Below are positions 6,719 through 59,810 of a stretch of DNA of 64,000 nucleotides, piece by piece. The stretch's first letter is position 1. Every line of letters begins with the position of its first letter. The stretch spans positions 1-64,000 of the forward strand of contig JAQTXA010000008.1 in the NCBI GenBank assembly GCA_028689025.1, in the 5' to 3' direction. Both the position numbers and the translations under genes were made by a program. The notes under the pieces were generated by a model, which searched no databases, was not told the origin of the DNA, and saw nothing but the letters and a program-made list of their open reading frames with translations. The DNA comes from Aliarcobacter sp. GTDB lineage: Bacteria; Campylobacterota; Campylobacteria; Campylobacterales; Arcobacteraceae.

Positions 6719-8560
6719 ATGGAAAAAAAAACCATCTATCAATTTACAGCTGTTACATTATTAACAACCTTAATTGTTACTGTAATTGCTACGTATAACT
6801 CAAAAAACAATTCAATTAAAGATTCAATTCATGATGCAGAAATCATTTCTGAAATAGTAAAAAATAATTTAACCACTCACATGGTAAATAAAAATATGCA
6901 CCAAATGGAAACATATTTATACTCTATGTCAAATGTTAAAAATATCATGAGTTTATGGACAGTAAGAGATGAATCAATAAACAAACAGTATGGCATTAAT
7001 GAGAATAAAAAAGCCAAAGATGATATCGATAAAGAAGTTTTAAAAACTGGTAAAACTATTTATAAATTAAATAAAAATTCCAACTATTCTGTCATGCGTA
7101 TAACTGTTCCCTATAAAGTAGTATTTGAAAATGGTATTGACTGTCTTAGTTGTCATAATGCTTCTCAAGGTGATACATTGGGTGCAATATCAATGGAATT
7201 AAATATAAATGAATTAGGGGATCCTGAATTAGAAAATATCTATATAATTCCTATTATTGTAATTATTGGTATGTTATTAATTTTATTTATATTTAAAAAA
7301 ACATTTAACCAATACTCATTAATTTTTAATAATTTATCTAAAAGCTTGGATTCTGCAATTAATGGTAAATTTAGGATAATATCTTATCCTGAAAATTTAT
7401 CTAGTGACATGATAATTTTAATGGATAAATTTAATAATTTAATGACAACTTTCAAAGATACAACAACAGACATAGATAAAAAATTAAAAGGTTTTATTGG
7501 AAGTAAAATAAGTAATCAAACTAATCCTTTACAAGATTCAAAAGATATAGTTTTAAATCTATCAAATTTATATCAATTTAAAAAAGAGATTGAGCTTGAT
7601 AATACTAAAGAAGAAATTTATAATAGATTATCAGAAATTTTTATTAATCAATTTAAAATCACAAACTTTACTTTTATTGAAGTAGATGTAGCTAAACATA
7701 AAATGAACACAACAAAAGAGGTTGGAAATACATTTTATTGTAAAGAAAATATTGAAAATGAACCTCAATTATGTCGTGCAGCAAGAACTAAAAATGACGT
7801 AATTACAACTGCATACCATAATACTTGTCCATATTTTGAAAAAGAGAATAAATTTCATTACTGTATTAGCACAGATATTAGTAAAGATATTTATTTGATA
7901 ATAAACTTTGTATTTGATACAAATGAAGAGTTAGATTATCTAAAAGAAAAAATTTCATACATTAAAAGTTATATTAATGAAGCAGCGCCTTCAATTGAAG
8001 TTAAACTTCTAATGGAAGCACTACAACAATCAGCATTTAGAGATGGATTAACAGGGTTATACAATAGAAAATTCCTAGAGGAACATACAAAAAAACTTAT
8101 TCCTCAAGCAACTAGAGATAAATTTAATATTGGTGTATTATTATTAGATATGGATCATTTTAAAGCTGTAAATGATGAGTATGGACATGATATTGGTGAT
8201 AAAGTATTAAAAGAGTTAGCAAGAATTTTAAATGAAACGGTAAGAGAATCAGACCTTATTATTAGATATGGTGGTGAAGAGTTTATAGTTTTATTAGTTA
8301 ATATCAAATCGGAAGAAGATGCCTTAGCAGTTGCTAATAAAATTAGAACAAAAGTTAGTGAAAATGAAATTGATGTTTATGCTGGAAGCAAATTAAGAAA
8401 AACTGTTAGTATTGGACTATCAATGTTTCCAGAAGATTCATCTTCTTTAGAATCAGTAATAAAACAAGCAGATATTGCCCTTTATGAAGCGAAAAGTAAA
8501 GGAAGAAATAAAGTAATTAGATTCCAATCAGAACAAGTTTCAAGTATTGATTTATTCTAA
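6719..8560 (+). CDS. diguanylate cyclase with periplasmic heme-c site and cysteine-rich cytoplasmic domain
   Basis: A 613-residue membrane protein. TM1 at about 8-25 and TM2 at about 174-193 enclose a periplasmic sensor domain with a heme-c attachment motif CLSCH (142-146), as in Tll0287/DUF3365-like sensors. A cytoplasmic region (about 290-430) resembles GAF and carries spaced cysteines in FYC, QLCRAARTK, NTCPYF and HYC, which could bind a metal. The C-terminal GGDEF domain has DMDHFKAVND and RYGGEEF, so it should make c-di-GMP. An inhibitory I-site RESD sits five residues before GGEEF. Redox or gas sensing is inferred. The start is ATG after AGGGA. Confidence 0.9.
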   Translation: MEKKTIYQFTAVTLLTTLIVTVIATYNSKNNSIKDSIHDAEIISEIVKNNLTTHMVNKNMHQMETYLYSMSNVKNIMSLWTVRDESINKQYGINENKKAKDDIDKEVLKTGKTIYKLNKNSNYSVMRITVPYKVVFENGIDCLSCHNASQGDTLGAISMELNINELGDPELENIYIIPIIVIIGMLLILFIFKKTFNQYSLIFNNLSKSLDSAINGKFRIISYPENLSSDMIILMDKFNNLMTTFKDTTTDIDKKLKGFIGSKISNQTNPLQDSKDIVLNLSNLYQFKKEIELDNTKEEIYNRLSEIFINQFKITNFTFIEVDVAKHKMNTTKEVGNTFYCKENIENEPQLCRAARTKNDVITTAYHNTCPYFEKENKFHYCISTDISKDIYLIINFVFDTNEELDYLKEKISYIKSYINEAAPSIEVKLLMEALQQSAFRDGLTGLYNRKFLEEHTKKLIPQATRDKFNIGVLLLDMDHFKAVNDEYGHDIGDKVLKELARILNETVRESDLIIRYGGEEFIVLLVNIKSEEDALAVANKIRTKVSENEIDVYAGSKLRKTVSIGLSMFPEDSSSLESVIKQADIALYEAKSKGRNKVIRFQSEQVSSIDLF

Positions 8561-9062: not shown

Positions 9063-9401
9063 ATGCAATTAGAAGTATCTGCTGAAGTTATATTATCGCA
9101 ATTAGGATATTCAAAAGGTGAAGCTTCACTAAAACAAGCTGAAAAAATGATGGAATCTACAATAAATTTTGATAAATTTGCAAAACATATTTTTACACTA
9201 AATGATCACCTAAAAAAAATGAATGCTTATGTAGGTCTATCTAACAAATCAAATCATTTAAAAATTAAATGTGATGAAAATGACTCTGAAGAGATTTTAC
9301 AAGAATTTCATGAAGAAGTTTCACATTGGGCTGATAAACACAATGTGAACCTTGAGAAAACAGATAATAAACATCTTTACTATATATTAGGAAGTAATTA
9401 A
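9063..9401 (+). CDS. conserved hypothetical protein, 112 residues
   Basis: Not recognised. A small, soluble, mildly acidic protein with helical N-terminal half (SAEVILSQLGYSKGEASLKQAEKMM) and no signal peptide or cysteine pair. An in-frame ATG at 9021 exists, but the ATG at 9063 directly follows AAGAAGGATTAAA, so the shorter start is preferred. Its TAA overlaps the stop of msrA on the other strand by three bases. Confidence 0.7.
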   Translation: MQLEVSAEVILSQLGYSKGEASLKQAEKMMESTINFDKFAKHIFTLNDHLKKMNAYVGLSNKSNHLKIKCDENDSEEILQEFHEEVSHWADKHNVNLEKTDNKHLYYILGSN

Positions 9402-9892
9402 AATATCTTTCTATAACTATGACAATAAGGCATCTTTTGATGTCTTTCATAGTAATCTTGATGATACTCTTCTGCTTCGTAAAATGGCACTAACTCATGT
9501 AAAGAAGTAGCAACTTTAAAACCTTTTTCACTTAACTCTTTAATCAACTTTTCACTTATATTTTTTTGCTCAATATCTACATAAAATATTGCAGATAAAT
9601 ATTGACTTCCAATATCTGGACCTTGTCCATTTGTTTGAGTAAAATCATGGATTTCAAAAAACAATTTTGTTAATGTTTCAAAAGAAACAATAGTTTCATC
9701 ATAAGATACTTCTACAACTTCTAGGTGTCCTGTAGAACCTGAACAAACCATTTGATAACTTGGATTTTCTATGTGTCCACCCATATAACCTGATATTGCA
9801 GAGATAACACCTTTTAATTTTTCAAAATGATATTCAACTCCCCAAAAACAACCTGCTGCGAAATATGCTTTTTTAATATTTTGATTTTGCAT
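9398..9892 (-). CDS. msrA: peptide methionine sulfoxide reductase MsrA
   Basis: Reduces the S-epimer of methionine sulfoxide in proteins. The 164-residue protein carries the catalytic motif GCFWGVEYHF (Cys at about 16), plus GYMGG, GSTGHLEVVEV and DIGSQYLSAIFY, all standard for the family. No signal peptide, so cytoplasmic. It is the last gene of an msrB-NYN-msrA operon, starting only one base after the NYN gene stop, with AGGAATTAAA as ribosome binding site. Confidence 0.96.
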   Translation of the reverse strand: MQNQNIKKAYFAAGCFWGVEYHFEKLKGVISAISGYMGGHIENPSYQMVCSGSTGHLEVVEVSYDETIVSFETLTKLFFEIHDFTQTNGQGPDIGSQYLSAIFYVDIEQKNISEKLIKELSEKGFKVATSLHELVPFYEAEEYHQDYYERHQKMPYCHSYRKIF

Positions 9893-9893
9893 T

Positions 9894-10631
9894 TTAATTC
9901 CTATTATCTCTTATTAACATTACTGTTTTATTTTCACCTAATATTTTTATATCGAATAATTCAGTGGCTTTTATTAATTCACCCAATTTTTTATATCCAT
10001 AATTGATTGGTGAGAAAGATGAATTTTGATTGATATATAAACCAACAGCAGCAATATTTGACCAACCACTATCATCTGAGGTTTGTTCTGCTGCTTTTCT
10101 TAAAAGTGCCACAAGTTTTGTATCTTTTCTTAATTGAACTTTTGTTAGTTTACTGTTATTTGAACTAGCACAGGCAACATCTTCTTTTGTATAATCAAAA
10201 AGTTTTTCCACATAAATAAACTGTGAACAAGCATTTACAAAAGACTCGGGAGTTTTTTCTTCTCCATATCCATAAACTGTAATTCCATTTGATAATATTC
10301 TTGAAACAACAGGAGTAAAATCACTATCACTTGTTACAAGAGCTAAGGCTCCAAGATTTCTAGTATATAGCAAATCCATAATATCAATAACCATTGCAAT
10401 GTCACTGGCATTTTTACCTTTTGTATAGGCAAATTGTTGGATTGGTTTTATATTATATTTATGTAAAATATCTTCCCAGCCTTGAAGTCTTTTATCTTTC
10501 CAATTTCCATAGGCATTTCTAATATTTATAGTTCCATATTTTGATAAATCATTTATAATACTATCAATATATTTTGCACTTACATTGTCGCAATCTATTA
10601 GCATTGCGATATTTATTTGAGGGATAATCAT
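9894..10631 (-). CDS. NYN (LabA/PIN-like) domain protein with C-terminal OST-HTH/LOTUS-like domain
   Basis: A 245-residue predicted nuclease or RNA-binding protein. The NYN fold is at about 8-150: IAMLIDCDNVS, KNASDIAMVIDIMDLL and LVTSDSDFTPVV provide the acidic residues of a PIN-like active site. The C-terminal part (about 170-240, SGWSNIAAVGLYINQ to YKKLGELIKATELFDI) resembles an OST-HTH/LOTUS RNA-binding domain. It overlaps msrB by 4 bases and abuts msrA, so it is co-translated with both methionine sulfoxide reductases. The functional link to oxidative damage is inferred from context only. Confidence 0.88.
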   Translation of the reverse strand: MIIPQINIAMLIDCDNVSAKYIDSIINDLSKYGTINIRNAYGNWKDKRLQGWEDILHKYNIKPIQQFAYTKGKNASDIAMVIDIMDLLYTRNLGALALVTSDSDFTPVVSRILSNGITVYGYGEEKTPESFVNACSQFIYVEKLFDYTKEDVACASSNNSKLTKVQLRKDTKLVALLRKAAEQTSDDSGWSNIAAVGLYINQNSSFSPINYGYKKLGELIKATELFDIKILGENKTVMLIRDNRN

Positions 10632-10990
10632 GCTTTTGCTTTAAAGTTTAACGAAATAGAATTCACACAATGTCTTGTATTTTTTGAAGTTATTCTTTCA
10701 CCTTCAAAAACATGTCCTAAATGTCCACCACAAGAAGCACAAACAATCTCTATTCGTCTTCCATCTTTATCTGGAACTCTTTTAACTGCACCTTTTATTT
10801 CATCGTCAAAACTTGGCCATCCACAACCTGATTTAAATTTATCATCTGATTTATAAAGTGGCGCATCACATTTTTTACATGTAAAAATTCCTTCTTCATA
10901 AAAATCATCATATTTCCCAGAAAATGGATATTCTGTTCCTTTTTTTTCTATTACATATTTTTCTTCATCATTTAATTCATTATATTTCAT
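10628..10990 (-). CDS. msrB: peptide methionine (R)-S-oxide reductase MsrB
   Basis: Reduces the R-epimer of methionine sulfoxide. The 120-residue protein has two zinc-binding CxxC pairs (CKKC near 38 and CASC near 85), SGCGWPSF, GGHLGHVF and the catalytic cysteine in TRHCVNS. No signal peptide. First gene of the operon with the NYN protein and msrA; its stop overlaps the next start (ATGA). Confidence 0.96.
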   Translation of the reverse strand: MKYNELNDEEKYVIEKKGTEYPFSGKYDDFYEEGIFTCKKCDAPLYKSDDKFKSGCGWPSFDDEIKGAVKRVPDKDGRRIEIVCASCGGHLGHVFEGERITSKNTRHCVNSISLNFKAKA

Positions 10991-52964: not shown

Positions 52965-55900
52965 ATGAAAAAAAGAAATATGAAAAAACCAATAATAAGC
53001 GCCCTTGAACAAAGAATTCTTTTTGATGGTGCAGCAGTTACTACTGCGGTTGATGTTCTTGATAATAGTAGTTTTACTACAATAACTAAAGACTCAACTG
53101 CTACAAATAATGATGCTACAAATAATAGTGCGGAAAATATTGTACATGAAGCGCAAGCAGTTCAAACATTTGAAAAAGATAGAAGAGAAGTTGCTTTTGT
53201 GGATTCAACTGTTAAAGATTATCAAACTTTAGTTGATGGAATAGGAAAAGATGTAGAAGTATATCTTGTTAGTTCACTTGATGAAATAAACTCAATACTT
53301 CAAAACCAAAAAAATATTAATGCAATACATATCTTATCACATGGAAGTACAGGAGAAATAACTGTAGGAAATGATATTTTAAATAGTGATACATTAGATG
53401 AAAATACTCTATTACTTGAAACTATAAAAAACTCTTTAACAGAAAATGGAGATATTTTACTTTATGGATGTAATGTAGCAAGTGATGGAAATGGAGAAGG
53501 ATTTATAAACTCAATAGCCCAAATCACACAAGCTGATGTTGCTGCTTCTGATGATTTAACTGGTTCTTCTACACTAGGTGGAGATTGGATTTTAGAAAAG
53601 AGTATAGGTGTTATTGATACAAATGATTTAAATATTGCTAGCTATGATGGTACTTTAGCAGCTACAACATTTAATTTTTCAAGTGGAACAATAGACATAA
53701 ATTATACAAACCATGTTAGACAAAATATAGGTGGAGTTGTTGTTGATGCAACTATTCTAGATTCAGGAACAAGTCCTACTGTATCAGGCGGTATTTTTAC
53801 AGATAGTTCAAATCAGGGTAAAACGATGCAGTTTAACTTTAGTACACCATCTGTTGCTTCAAGTATTAAAGTTGGATATTATAGTAATACGGGAATTGTA
53901 GGTGATTTTTCAGTTAAAGGTTATGATGGTGCCACACTATTATATTCTTATACAATTTCAAGCCCTAATGTGAGTACCACTTATACTTTAGATTTGGCAA
54001 CTTTAGGATGGAGTTCTAATTTAACAAAAATTGAAGTTAATAATACAGGGGCAGGAAAAGTTACTTTTTTTGCTGATGATATTGTTATTGCACCATCAAA
54101 TCCAGCTCCAACAGATATTCAACTATCTTCGACTTTAGCACCACAAGATTTAACAGGAGCTAGAATAGCTAATATTAGAGCATATGATAAAAGTGGATTA
54201 GTAAGTTCACTAGGAAACTATCCTAGTTATGCTTATACCTATGCAACAGATACAGTTACTTTTTCAGAAGTAACAGATAGTAGTAATTTATTTAATGTTA
54301 GTTCTTCTGGAATATTATCACTAGATAGTGGTAAATCATTAGCAAATGGGGCAACTGCAAATATTACTATTAGAGCTACAGATAGTGCAAATAATTATTT
54401 TGATAAAACCTTTACAATAACAGGTGGCGCATATAATAGTATAACTGTTACTCCAAGTACAACAGGTACTTTTACATATAGTGGCACGACAATTGGAAAT
54501 ACATATACAAATACTAATTGGACTAATAATGATGATAGTTTTTATATATTAGCACCAACTGCTTCAGGATCTGATTTAAATGACCCGGAATGGGGAGATA
54601 CGTTAAGTAGTGCAATCACATATGATCCTTTAAATAATGCACAAAATGTTGAATATGTTGCAGGTGCTAGTAATGGAACAGATACTTTTGTTTTGGGAAA
54701 TGAATATTATGTTGTAACAGTTGGTTCTGTTGTAGATACAACTCCCCCAACATTTGATGTGACACCATCTGCTTCGAATGTAAGCTCAACTACTTTAGAT
54801 TTAAGTGCAAGTTTAAATGAAGCAGGAACTATCTATTATGTAGTTGTAGCAAATGGAGCAACTGCTCCAAGTGTAGCTCAAGTATTAGCAGGACAAGACT
54901 CAAGTGGTGCATCCGCACTAAAATCAGGAAATGGTAGCGTTGCAACTACTCCTTTTACAGGAACTTACAACATCTCAGGACTGAGTTCAAATACAGCTTA
55001 TGATATTTATGTAGTTGGAAAAGATAGTGCTGGAACACCAAATGTAATGACTACAGCTACAAAAGTTGATGTTACGACAGCTGGTTTATCTGCAACATTT
55101 GATTTTGAATCAAATATGACAGGAGTTGGTACAAAAACAGTAACTCAGACTGTTTCAGGTGTTACCTTGTCAATTACTTCGACAACGATATCAATTGTTG
55201 ATTCAAGTACAACTTCAGGACAAGATATTCAAGGTACAACTACATTAAGTACGGATTATGGTACAGCTTTAGAAACACAGTTAGATTTTTCAGTTACTGG
55301 TTATACATTCAATTTAGATTCACTAATTATTTTTAATGTAAATACTAATGAAACCTTTACATTAACTGCAAATGGACAAACTGCTAGCTTATTAATAACA
55401 TCAGGTGCTACTCCTACATGGAATATTTCTGGTTCTGCTGATGCATCAAAATTTCAAAATATTTCAAGTTTTACTTTGACAGCAACTAATCCTTATGCAA
55501 TTGATTTTGATAGTATAATTCTTACAAATATTACTCCCGCAGGTCCTACTGCACCAAGTGCTCCCAATATGACAGCTGGAAGTGATAGTGGAAGTAGTTC
55601 TACAGATAATAGTACAAATGATAATACACCAACTTTTACAGGAACTGCAGATGCAAATGCAACTGTCAATTTATATGACACAGATGGAACAACAGTTCTA
55701 GGAACAACAACTGCTAATGGTTCTGGTAATTGGTCAATTACATCATCAACTCTATCAGACGGTGCTCATACAATTACAGCAAAACAAACCGTATCAGGTC
55801 AAGAATCATCTGCTTCTTCAAGTTTATCTGTAACTATAGATACATCTACTCCTAGTGCTTCTGCAACAACTGCAACATTAAAAAATAGCACAAATGCAAC

Positions 55901-58900
55901 GGTACAAAGTAGTGAAACTGGAACAGCATATATAATTAAAGATACAGTTATTGTTTCTAATATATCAGACATAACAAGTGCATCTGATGATAACTTTAAT
56001 AGTATTACAATATCAAGTGCAAACACTAATACAAATATGGCACTTTCAGGTTTAGTTGATGGAACTTATAAAGTTTATTCAACTGATACAGCTGGAAATT
56101 TATCATCTGCATCTACAAATACAATCACTATAGACACAACTGCCCCAACTTCACTAGCGGTTAGTACAAATAGTATCTCATCTTCAATCACAGGTACAAA
56201 TTCAAATATTGCAACAATATCAGCAACAGATACACACACTATAACATATGCACTTGCAAGTGGAAATGGAACAAATGATGCAAATAATTCAAGTTTTAAT
56301 ATTTCAGGAACAGATCTTAGAACAAGTTCAGCTCTAAGCGCTGGAACTTATAATATTTATTTAAGTGCAACTGATTCTGCTGGAAATGTAACATATCAAG
56401 CACTTACCATCACAGTAAATAGTGGACCAACAGTAAGTACAGCAACAAGAACATATACAGACACCTCTGCAAATGACACATTCACTAATACAACAGGAAC
56501 AATAAGCGCAACAGCTTCAAGTGGTTCAATTACTGGATATGGTATTAATACAGGAACAACTGGTGGGACTGATAATATAGGTGGGACTGTGTATGATGTG
56601 TCAAAAGCAGGAACTTATGGAACATTATATGTAAAATCAAGTGATGGAAGTTATGTATATGTTCCAACAAGCAATAGTGCAATAAATGCAACTTCAACAA
56701 CTGTTACCGATGCCTTTACAATAGAGGCAACTGATAGTGCTGGAACAAAAGGAAATACTTTAACTATTACGATTAATGGTGTAAATGATACTCCGATATT
56801 AACAGCACCAAGTGCAGGAAGTTATGCAGATACAAGTGCGTATGATACATTTAGTAATACAACAGGAATTTTAAGTGCTAGTGATAGAGATACTGGAACA
56901 ACATTAACTTATGGAATAAGCACCGGAACAACCGGTGGAAGTGATAATTTTGGTGGAACTATTTATGATATTTCAAAAGCAGGAAGTTATGGAACATTAT
57001 ATGTAAAATCAAGTGATGGAAGTTATGTTTATGTTCCAAATGCAAGTGCAATAAATGCACTTACAAATAATACAACAGATAATTTTACAGTAACAACATC
57101 AGATGTTGGATTATCTGATTCTCAAACATTTACAGTAAATATTACAGGTGTAAATGATACACCAACAGCAGTAAATAAAACAATCACAATAAATGAAGAT
57201 ACGCCAACACTATTAAGTGCAAATGACTTTGGATTTAGTGATGCAGATAGTGCAAGCACATTATCAAGTATAAAAATAACAACTTTAGAAACAGTGGGAA
57301 CATTAGAATATTATAATGGAACAGTATGGACAGATGTAACATTAAATCAAGTAATAACAAAAGTAGATATAGATGCAAATAAATTAAGATTTAGTCCCTC
57401 TTTAAATGGGAATGGAGATAATTATTCAACATTCCAATTTACAGTAAATGATGGAACAATAGATTCTGTAAGTGCCAATACAATAACGTATAATGTAACA
57501 GCAGTAAATGATGCACCAATAGTTGCCAATGCAATAGTAGATCAAAGTGCTAGTGTATCTAATGCTTTTAGTTTCCAATTTGCTACAAATAGTTTTACAG
57601 ATGTAGATACTAGTGATACATTGAGCTACACTACTCAACTTGTAGATGGAAGTGGGAATTTAGTAAATAGTGGAACACTTCCAACATGGTTGAGTTTTAA
57701 CTCAGGAACAAGAACATTTAGTGGTACTCCTGCAATTGGTGATGCAGGAACTATTTATCTAAAAGTGATAGCAACTGATAATGGCACAGGCAATTTAAAT
57801 GTTTCTGATATATTTTCAATCACAGTAAATAGTGGACCAACAGTAAGTACAGCAACAGGAACATATACAGACACCTCTGCAAACGACACATTCACTAATA
57901 CAACAGGAACAATAAGCGCAACAGCTTCAAGTGGTTCAATTACTGGATATGGTATTAATACAGGAATAACTGGTGGGACTGATAATATAGGTGGGACAGT
58001 TTATGATGTGTCAAAAGCAGGAACTTATGGAACATTATATGTAAAATCAAGTGACGGAAGTTATGTATATGTTCCAACAAGCAATAGTGCGATAAATGCA
58101 ACTTCAACAACTGTTACAGATGCCTTTACAATAGAGGCAACTGATAGTGCTGGAACAAAAGGAAATACTTTAACTATTACGATTAATGGTGTAAATGATA
58201 CTCCAACTGTAGCAAATATAATTGGAAATCAAACTGCAACACAAGATAGTGTATATAATTTTCAATTTTCATCAAATGTATTTTCAGATGTAGATTCAGG
58301 AGATACTCAAACTTATACAGCCCAATTAGTTGATAGTAATGGAAATTTAGTTAATAGTGGAACATTACCTACTTGGTTAACATTTACATCAGGAACAAGA
58401 ACTTTTAGTGGAACACCTACAAACTCAGATGTCGGAATAATTTATATAAAAGTTATAGTAACAGATGGATCAAGTGCAACAATAAGTGATACATTTGCAT
58501 TAACAGTAAATAATGTAAATGATGCTCCAACAGGAAGTGTAATAATAAATGGAATACTAAAACAAGGTGAAACATTAACAGCAAGTAATAATATAGCTGA
58601 TATAGATGGATTGGGAACAATTACTTACCAATGGTATGCTAATGATGTTCTAATAACTGGAGCAACAAATTCAACATATCTATTAACTCAAAATGAAGTA
58701 GATAAAGTAATAACTGTAAAAGCGAATTATACAGATGCACAAAGTACAAATGAAACAGTAACAAGTAGTGCAACAACTTCAATTGTAAATGTAAATGATG
58801 CACCAACTGTATCATCAGAAAATATAGATGTTGTCCTTCCTTTTGGAAATAATTATGTAAAAGATATATCTACATTATTTAGTGATATAGATAATTCAAA

Positions 58901-59810
58901 CACTTTTACTTTTGAAGCAATAAATTTACCAGCAGGATTATCAATAAACTCTCTTACTGGAGTAATTTCAGGTAAACCTACACAATCAGGTGATTTTATT
59001 ATTACTATAAAAGGAATAGACTCAGGAACACCAGCTATGAGCATTAGTAGAACATATAATATGTTAGTTCTACCAGGCGCACAAACGAGAGTAGATACAC
59101 TGCCTAACATACCAATATTAAATAATACTAATCCAATAGGAACTAATACAAATATATCTTTAAATAGTTTTAAAGACAATACAAATTTAGGGGTATTAAA
59201 CTATAGTGTAAATGGAGACAATGTTGATAATACAGGTGAAGGTTTCATAAAAACAAATGAAACAAACAATAGAAATACGCAAAATAATACTCCTCAAAAT
59301 AATACAGACACACCAAATCAGCCTAATTATCAAACGGATAATGGAAAAGGAATGATACAATCAAATGTAAATTTAAATGTATCAACAAATGGGCAAGTAT
59401 CATTTAATCAATCTAATCAAGACTCTTTTTCAGTTGTTGGAATAACAATTGAAGATATTAAAGTTGAAAATGGTAGATTAGAAATTAAAATACTAGATAC
59501 AAATCTTTCTAATAATTTCATTATTACTAAAACCGATGGAACACCGCTACCTGCTGGACTATCTTTTGATCCAAAAACAGGAAGTATTTCAGGTTCAATT
59601 CCTGAAAATTTAGAGAAATTAGAAATAAGTATTAAATCTGTAAATACAGATGGAACAACTAAAATTCTAAATCTAAAACTTGATTTAAAACAATTAAAAA
59701 ATAAAAATCAAGCTGATACACAAAGTTTTATAGGCTTACAAGAGCAAGTAGCATTTGAAAATCAAAAACTAGATGGTTACGGAACTTATCTTACAAAATT
59801 ATTCGCGTAA
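52965..59810 (+). CDS. giant repeat adhesin with LEPR-XLL-like N-terminus and DUF4347 domain
   Basis: A 2281-residue surface protein. No ordinary signal peptide; instead [12 protein letters not shown] (13-24) matches the LEPR-XLL N-terminal motif of very large exported proteins. A DUF4347 domain spans about 75-225, with LSHG (His126) and YGCN (Cys169). The rest is a chain of Ig/cadherin-like repeats: a Big-type unit near 870-970, VCBS-like units joined by GVNDTP or VNDAPT linkers, and several He_PIG/CADG units (LPTWLSF...RTFSGTP). It lacks glycine-rich RTX calcium nonapeptides. The C-terminus ends in a conserved-looking helical tail. The composition is Thr/Ser/Asn/Gly-rich. Predicted role: adhesion, aggregation or biofilm matrix binding. 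Confidence 0.9.
56411..56794 (+). repeat. 384-bp internal adhesin repeat, copy 1
   Basis: Nearly identical to 57821-58204 at a fixed offset of 1410 bases, with only about eight visible base differences, mostly synonymous. Encodes one VCBS-like unit (about residues 1150-1277), from [10 protein letters not shown] to GVNDTP. Other repeats in the gene are far more diverged. Confidence 0.9.
57821..58204 (+). repeat. 384-bp internal adhesin repeat, copy 2
   Basis: Second copy of the unit at 56411-56794, encoding about residues 1620-1747. Protein-level differences include Arg to Gly and Thr to Ile; the rest are silent. Flanking repeats differ, so the copy was probably made by recent duplication or gene conversion. 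Confidence 0.9.

Follow-up and report, generated by a model that had tools for sequence, protein, structure and literature searches.

The stretch of DNA analysed here (the window) comprises 64,000 nucleotides of contig JAQTXA010000008.1 of Aliarcobacter sp. (assembly GCA_028689025.1), and its positions 6719..8560 (+) hold an intact open reading frame with an ATG start, which encodes a membrane GGEEF diguanylate cyclase of 613 aa. The gene and the features along it, as read from the sequence and from an AF2 model of the whole protein (mean pLDDT 81.5, pTM 0.40), are as follows.

6719..8560, plus strand: whole gene (613 aa; AF2), with an sCache_heme-like sensor, a four-cysteine (Cys4) GAF domain and a GGEEF diguanylate cyclase
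6722..6886, plus strand: helix 2–56 (AF2), in which a predicted first transmembrane helix (~residues 5–25, a hydrophobic stretch in the sequence) runs into the sensor domain
6881..6883, plus strand: Met55, predicted distal axial heme ligand (HMMER alignment with Met60 of GSU0935)
7142..7156, plus strand: CLSCH (142–146), predicted covalent heme c attachment, with His146 as putative proximal ligand
7223..7360, plus strand: helix 169–214 (AF2), predicted second transmembrane helix and cytoplasmic extension
7520..8032, plus strand: region folded separately, residues 268–438, with a GAF fold and the Cys4 loop between strands 2 and 3 (AF2, fold search)
7739..7741, plus strand: Cys341 (C1; FYC)
7772..7774, plus strand: Cys352 (C2; QLC), followed by the conserved Arg353
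7826..7828, plus strand: Cys370 (C3; NTC)
7862..7864, plus strand: Cys382 (C4; HYC)
8021..8518, plus strand: GGDEF domain, residues 435–600 (TIGR00254, E 3.6e-57; PF00990, E 4e-50)
8243..8254, plus strand: RESD (509–512), which we take to be an RxxD inhibitory I-site
8270..8284, plus strand: GGEEF (518–522), active site

The GGDEF domain is full-length, its I-site and active site read RESD-LIIRY-GGEEF with both intact, and from this sequence the protein appears to make c-di-GMP. The strict pattern RxxD-x5-GGxEF is absent in 44 of 147 aligned rows, so that feedback control varies. In the AF2 model, helical linkers lie between the second membrane span and the GAF domain, and the whole protein contains exactly six cysteines.

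The CLSCH motif sits between the predicted membrane helices 2–56 and 169–214, each of which would hold one membrane span, and is flanked by strands 124–133 and 153–162 of the whole-protein model. A CxxCH motif arose in 15 of 20,000 shuffles, a chance estimated for the window protein only. Relatives were compared in a set of 110 rows, in which the window protein is joined by 109 homologues of 30–93% identity from 120 relative genomes; these were picked as good full-length matches and therefore favour conservation, and CxxCH is present in 109 of the 109 rows that cover the region; L021 starts inside its contig and does not reach it. A profile of the N-terminal 200 aa (alignment A2, 28 of 52 representatives, plus-strand rows only) found GSU0935 (3B42) as its best PDB match (E 0.005), in an alignment of 125 positions that keeps CxxCH and Met60 in register; the runner-up, PrgX (E 0.015), aligned over only 51 positions without the motif. 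In the 3B42 alignment, the His of CxxCH is chain position 110 and a Met is chain position 26. The axial heme ligands of GSU0935 are given as Met60 and His144 (PMC8396549), and since an offset of 34 fits both chain positions, His144 and Met60 fall on His146 and Met55. According to the same source, the GSU sensors switch the spin state and the Met ligation of the heme as its redox state changes (PMC8396549). Position 55 is Met in 106 of 110 rows, and Met55 thus occupies the Met60 position of the GSU0935 type of sCache_heme domain, suggesting that His146 and probably Met55 would be the axial ligands. Met ligation is not universal, because position 55 is Ile or Val in four heme-motif rows of a 141-row set (which omits L021, the partial L119–L122, and L123, L124, L146, L150 and L151 as repeats or partial) and Thr in L160. 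In L132 and in Poseidonibacter ostreae L141, the motif reads CISCN or CINCI and Met55 is replaced by Asn with the four GAF cysteines intact, so that His146 and Met55 are lost together there. These two genes (L132:3501-5339 and L141:3501-5339) are natural heme-minus close relatives.

The protein misses the Pfam cut-offs, scoring 14.9 bits for PF11845 (curated 24.1) and 21 bits for PF21563 (curated 27), and the N-terminal 200 aa alone still fall below them (17.1 and 24 bits); among 28 relatives, PF21563 matches eight at E 0.01 or better, the best at 3.5e-6. On the strands of the whole-protein model, on which the Cache placement rests rather than on a domain-only fold search, CxxCH lies between Cache strands 3 and 4, on what would be the extracytoplasmic side. 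The same layout, an extracytoplasmic domain with a single CxxCH placed between the third and fourth strands, is found in the sCache_heme/Tll0287-like (PF11845) and Mcp40H-20_sensor (PF21563) families, GSU0935 and GSU0582 (3B47), of which GSU0935 also shares the axial Met position. The window protein differs from the sCache_heme/Tll0287-like domains in falling below both Pfam cut-offs and in its output through a Cys4-GAF domain, and whereas Tll0287 has a Cys axial ligand, the window protein offers no periplasmic Cys besides those of CLSCH. The heme half is therefore no formal Pfam member, but it is homologous to these domains and likely works alike. The covalent periplasmic heme of the original prediction, made from the single CLSCH motif, is borne out as the expectation: CxxCH, the topology, the likeness to 3B42 and the conserved axial Met position all point to one covalent periplasmic heme c.

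A 2026 preprint gives such domains the new name sCache_heme and proposes that they sense NO; it places the heme insertion between Cache strands 3 and 4 and reports GGDEF/EAL fusions and the presence of the domain in over half of the genomes of Campylobacterota (PMC12889525). Its spectra and NO off-rate support NO sensing by one membrane member with a HAMP domain, and the signalling relative tested is read as a sensor of NO, not O2 (PMC12889525). Because such fusions are reported there, the general principle of a GGDEF protein controlled by heme c is already known. Another diguanylate cyclase under periplasmic heme control, PA14_53310, differs in that its heme binds a CHASE4 domain.

The whole-model VIA search was filled by GGDEF domains, and the GAF region (residues 268–438) was therefore refolded alone (AF2 mean pLDDT 89.4, pTM 0.85). 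Its top VIA match was 3cit (Z 13.3, rmsd 2.8 over 146), followed by many GAF, phytochrome and LuxR-type chains at Z 11–13, and its best Foldseek match was the GAF domain 5w10 (E 4.3e-5, TM ~0.5). Pfam GAF_2 matches three of 51 relatives (best E 1.2e-5) and leaves the window protein itself unmatched. The modelled region thus has a GAF fold, and the term GAF-like in the original prediction was apt. Over model residues 300–602, GAF and GGDEF together match the Pseudomonas aeruginosa diguanylate cyclase Dcsbis (4zmu, Z 25.2), the N-terminal domain of which is presumably a GAF domain; the high rmsd (14.7 over 284) indicates that the domains match one at a time. GAF domains bind ligands between their second and third strands, and the cysteine loop, which the model places there, probably lines this pocket. 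A PDB search with a profile of the cysteine domain gave a best match of only E 0.78, and a tblastn search of this domain against plasmids gave no match.

The four spaced cysteines that had been proposed as a metal or Fe–S site from FYC, QLC, NTC and HYC are Cys341, Cys352, Cys370 and Cys382, arranged as C341-x10-C352-x17-C370-x11-C382. The proposal was staked on their conservation among close homologues, which holds: in the 110 rows, Cys352, Cys370 and Cys382 are each kept in 109 and Cys341 in 104, and some distant homologues are without the cysteines. (L041 counts as lacking C1 among the 110 rows and reads CCCC in the 141-row set, as the alignments differ.) Among 51 GAF representatives (alignment A1, 51 of 52, with the Cys-less L109 left out), the only invariant columns are Cys352, Cys370 and Cys382, with Cys341 in 49, while in the median GAF column the most frequent residue accounts for 21 sequences. 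The segment contains 8.6 Cys per 100 aa, against 0.54 in the rest of the cytoplasmic part. The C2-x17-C3 spacing is fixed in all 104 of 104 rows with four cysteines and variable elsewhere (C1–C2 5–11, C3–C4 10–14). Six rows (L158–L163), representing the six weakest genomes of the GAF-profile search, were added later; in 147 rows, cysteines fill four of the four columns in 134, three in seven, two in none, one in four and none in two. Six of the seven three-cysteine rows still count four or more Cys across the segment, and L105 and L116–L118 carry a substitute Cys three residues past C3. The four cysteines are therefore nearly all-or-none and behave as one unit, a pattern that fits one shared site and leaves the identity of a cofactor unnamed. 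The weakest matches, L159–L163, have none or one Cys in the segment; together with L109 they are natural Cys-minus members that keep GGEEF and, except for L163, CxxCH. A heme regulatory (CP) motif at Cys370-Pro371 was considered and rejected, since many aligned rows have lost the Pro.

Each half also occurs by itself. The four cysteines are found without CxxCH in eight of 147 rows and CxxCH without the four cysteines in five, L163 having neither. L158, a weak match, combines four Cys and GGEEF with a long, different N-terminal input region and no CxxCH, and L159–L162 keep CxxCH when read stop to stop, L161 and L162 included. Joint function is thus not obligatory. Among 397 sampled genomes of the phylum, the GAF profile is found in 131 (E 1e-5 or better), the heme profile in 170 (E 1e-10 or better) and both in 121. 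Nine of the ten GAF-only genomes belong to the family (f15) of L113–L115, whose proteins have no CxxCH, and the tenth, G287, does hold a CxxCH (L162) that was missed at E 1e-10. When the six weakest GAF-profile genomes were opened, five were without the cysteines, so that at most 126 of the 397 genomes hold the four-cysteine form. On a quickly built tree with long branches, two changes are needed to explain the seven CxxCH-less rows of the 141-row set. A scan of genome contigs with one 8-residue pattern gave 29 loci, most of them with titles naming Arcobacteraceae or other Campylobacterota. The record L144 is titled Helicobacter pylori PMSS1 MAG and groups with Arcobacteraceae in the tree, and its title looks wrong. 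The Cys4-GAF domain is a conserved, separable module.

A cyclase with two inputs, heme c outside and a cysteine-ligated GAF cofactor inside, has in our judgement about an even chance of being the right reading. The near all-or-none behaviour of the GAF cysteines, the intact GGEEF and I-site and the constancy of CxxCH argue for it; against it stand the module shuffling, in which neither half needs the other, and the inability of sequence to separate Fe–S from Zn or a disulfide. We infer, for the signal, the coupling and the direction of its effect, a scheme in which the outer sCache_heme-like domain would hold one covalent heme c, the coordination of which, together with the packing of the domain, would change when the heme is oxidised or NO takes the place of an axial ligand. 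Inside, the GAF domain would hold a cofactor through Cys341, Cys352, Cys370 and Cys382, most likely an iron–sulfur cluster, which may report O2, NO or the redox state of the cytoplasm. The two signals would pass along model helices 169–214, 229–260, 270–293 and 402–439, which would determine the register of the paired GGEEF domains and make c-di-GMP output responsive to conditions both outside and inside the membrane. Such dual integration of both sites is plausible, and the protein may reach a single decision from two chemical readings, which are probably of redox or nitric oxide.

For the GAF cofactor, an iron–sulfur cluster would be favoured over zinc or a thiol switch. The cysteines do not form the ligand pattern of the [4Fe–4S] PAS sensors NreB/AirS, which is CxxC...CxxC. 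Wide cysteine spacing does occur in Fe–S sites. Precedents for Fe–S in GAF domains are CSK/Hik2, with a [3Fe–4S] cluster, and VnfA, with a proposed one; in both, the cofactor is assigned to GAF-region cysteines and the output is under redox or ROS control. They differ from the window protein in their kinase or enhancer-binding-protein outputs, and no four-Cys loop is described for them in the passages compared, the comparison covering cofactor and output control.

In a first alternative, the Cys4 site binds Zn, either to stabilise the loop or to sense Zn or hypochlorite as CZB domains do in some diguanylate cyclases, and only the heme senses redox or NO. Four cysteines are a common Zn ligand set, one or two additional Cys lie between C3 and C4 in 65 of 110 rows, and zf_Tbcl gives a weak match below its cut-off (E 0.07). 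Some diguanylate cyclases are regulated by Zn-binding CZB domains, although CZB is a helical bundle with three His and one Cys. In the window protein, no two of the GAF cysteines form a CxxC knuckle, and L109 and L159–L163 have lost all or nearly all four Cys yet keep the GAF region and GGDEF, which argues against a purely structural need. We consider the zinc site improbable.

Also unlikely is a thiol switch, in which the cysteines would work without metal as in free methionine-R-sulfoxide reductase (fRMsr; MsrC/YebR). The two share the GAF fold, fRMsr structures being among the top VIA matches (1vhm, Z 13.0; 3mmh, 13.0; 3ksf, 12.3; 3rfb, 12.2), and MAFFT sets three fRMsr cysteines on C341, C352 and C370. 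However, MAFFT is prone to pair cysteines, and hhalign, with four fRMsr sequences only, gives no family homology (Prob 0.25%) and pairs other residues; we therefore read the overlap as suggesting that the pocket can bring the cysteines together, and not as a sign of descent. The Glu of the fRMsr SEIV stretch, in the substrate region, aligns with His380, and the window protein is distinguished further by its cyclase fusion and by a fourth, equally conserved Cys, with 5–7 Cys in the segment in 87 of 110 rows. The MsrA (PF01625) and MsrB (PF01641) genes downstream of the cyclase gene would suit such a switch, but this synteny is confined to close relatives, MsrA being retained at three of 29 named loci. 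A heme-only reading, in which the GAF domain relays passively and its cysteines are empty or occupied by a small ligand, could draw on the NO-sensor properties of the HAMP-containing membrane sCache_heme protein (PMC12889525) and on L159–L162, which retain CxxCH and GGEEF without the cysteines, but it is very unlikely, as conservation within the GAF domain is highest at three of the cysteines and the full set of four survives in seven of seven heme-motif-less rows of the 141-row set and in L158 with its other input region.

The heme half of the two-input cyclase is of a known kind, and the Cys4-GAF half seems undescribed. Full-text searches of openly licensed PMC papers gave no four-cysteine GAF or Fe–S diguanylate cyclase in the titles and abstract beginnings of the matches listed (in two of the searches the best 20 of 41 and the best 15 of 294), a literature outside which most subscription papers fall. 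Neither 'iron-sulfur' nor 'Fe-S' appears in a 2022 census of c-di-GMP sensors, and the word GAF is absent from the main text of PMC12889525.

In the genome of the window (G000), the heme profile (E 0.001 or better) finds six proteins, all with GGDEF and/or EAL: C12:6719-8557 (the window protein), C10:7219+, C5:133.7-135.5 kb, C6:31.4 kb, C11:57.5 kb and C19:259.8 kb, the other five being L152–L156. Three are of the heme-Cys-GGEEF type, and one each is CxxCH-GGDEF, CxxCH-GGDEF-EAL and CxxCH-EAL, the last with a GGDEF domain that has no GG[DE]EF motif; one of the six matched through heme-profile positions 142–195 only. They possibly form a heme-c-wired c-di-GMP network in one cell. Tentatively, and with more doubt than confidence, we propose the Cys4-GAF as an undescribed Campylobacterota Fe–S sensor that would define the first Fe–S diguanylate cyclase family and, with heme c, a two-sided redox/NO gate, of which the three paralogues in G000 would be differently tuned versions. 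Campylobacterota often live at oxic–anoxic interfaces and respire many acceptors, and a common cyclase family that perhaps reads both periplasm and cytoplasm would tie respiration directly to c-di-GMP. As a candidate for a new sensor that binds a cofactor, the Cys4-GAF is clear-cut and open to testing, with the natural heme-minus and Cys-minus homologues as ready-made controls.

A conserved operon context was not found among the 29 named loci, several of which are short: RNase HII recurs at two and MsrA at the three noted above. Besides the cyclase, no neighbour is common to more than eight of 27 loci (alignment A4 holds the window and 26 of the 29 named loci, with L146, L150 and L151 (partial) out), and flanking-gene clusters differ by clade. 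A 91% relative in an Aliarcobacter MAG (L123) has the same neighbours as the window gene. Downstream of the cyclase gene, at window 9398-10990 (−), the MsrA gene, a gene for an NYN-LOTUS (OST-HTH) protein and the MsrB gene are grouped, and farther along, at window 52965-59810 (+), lies an open reading frame of 2281 aa.
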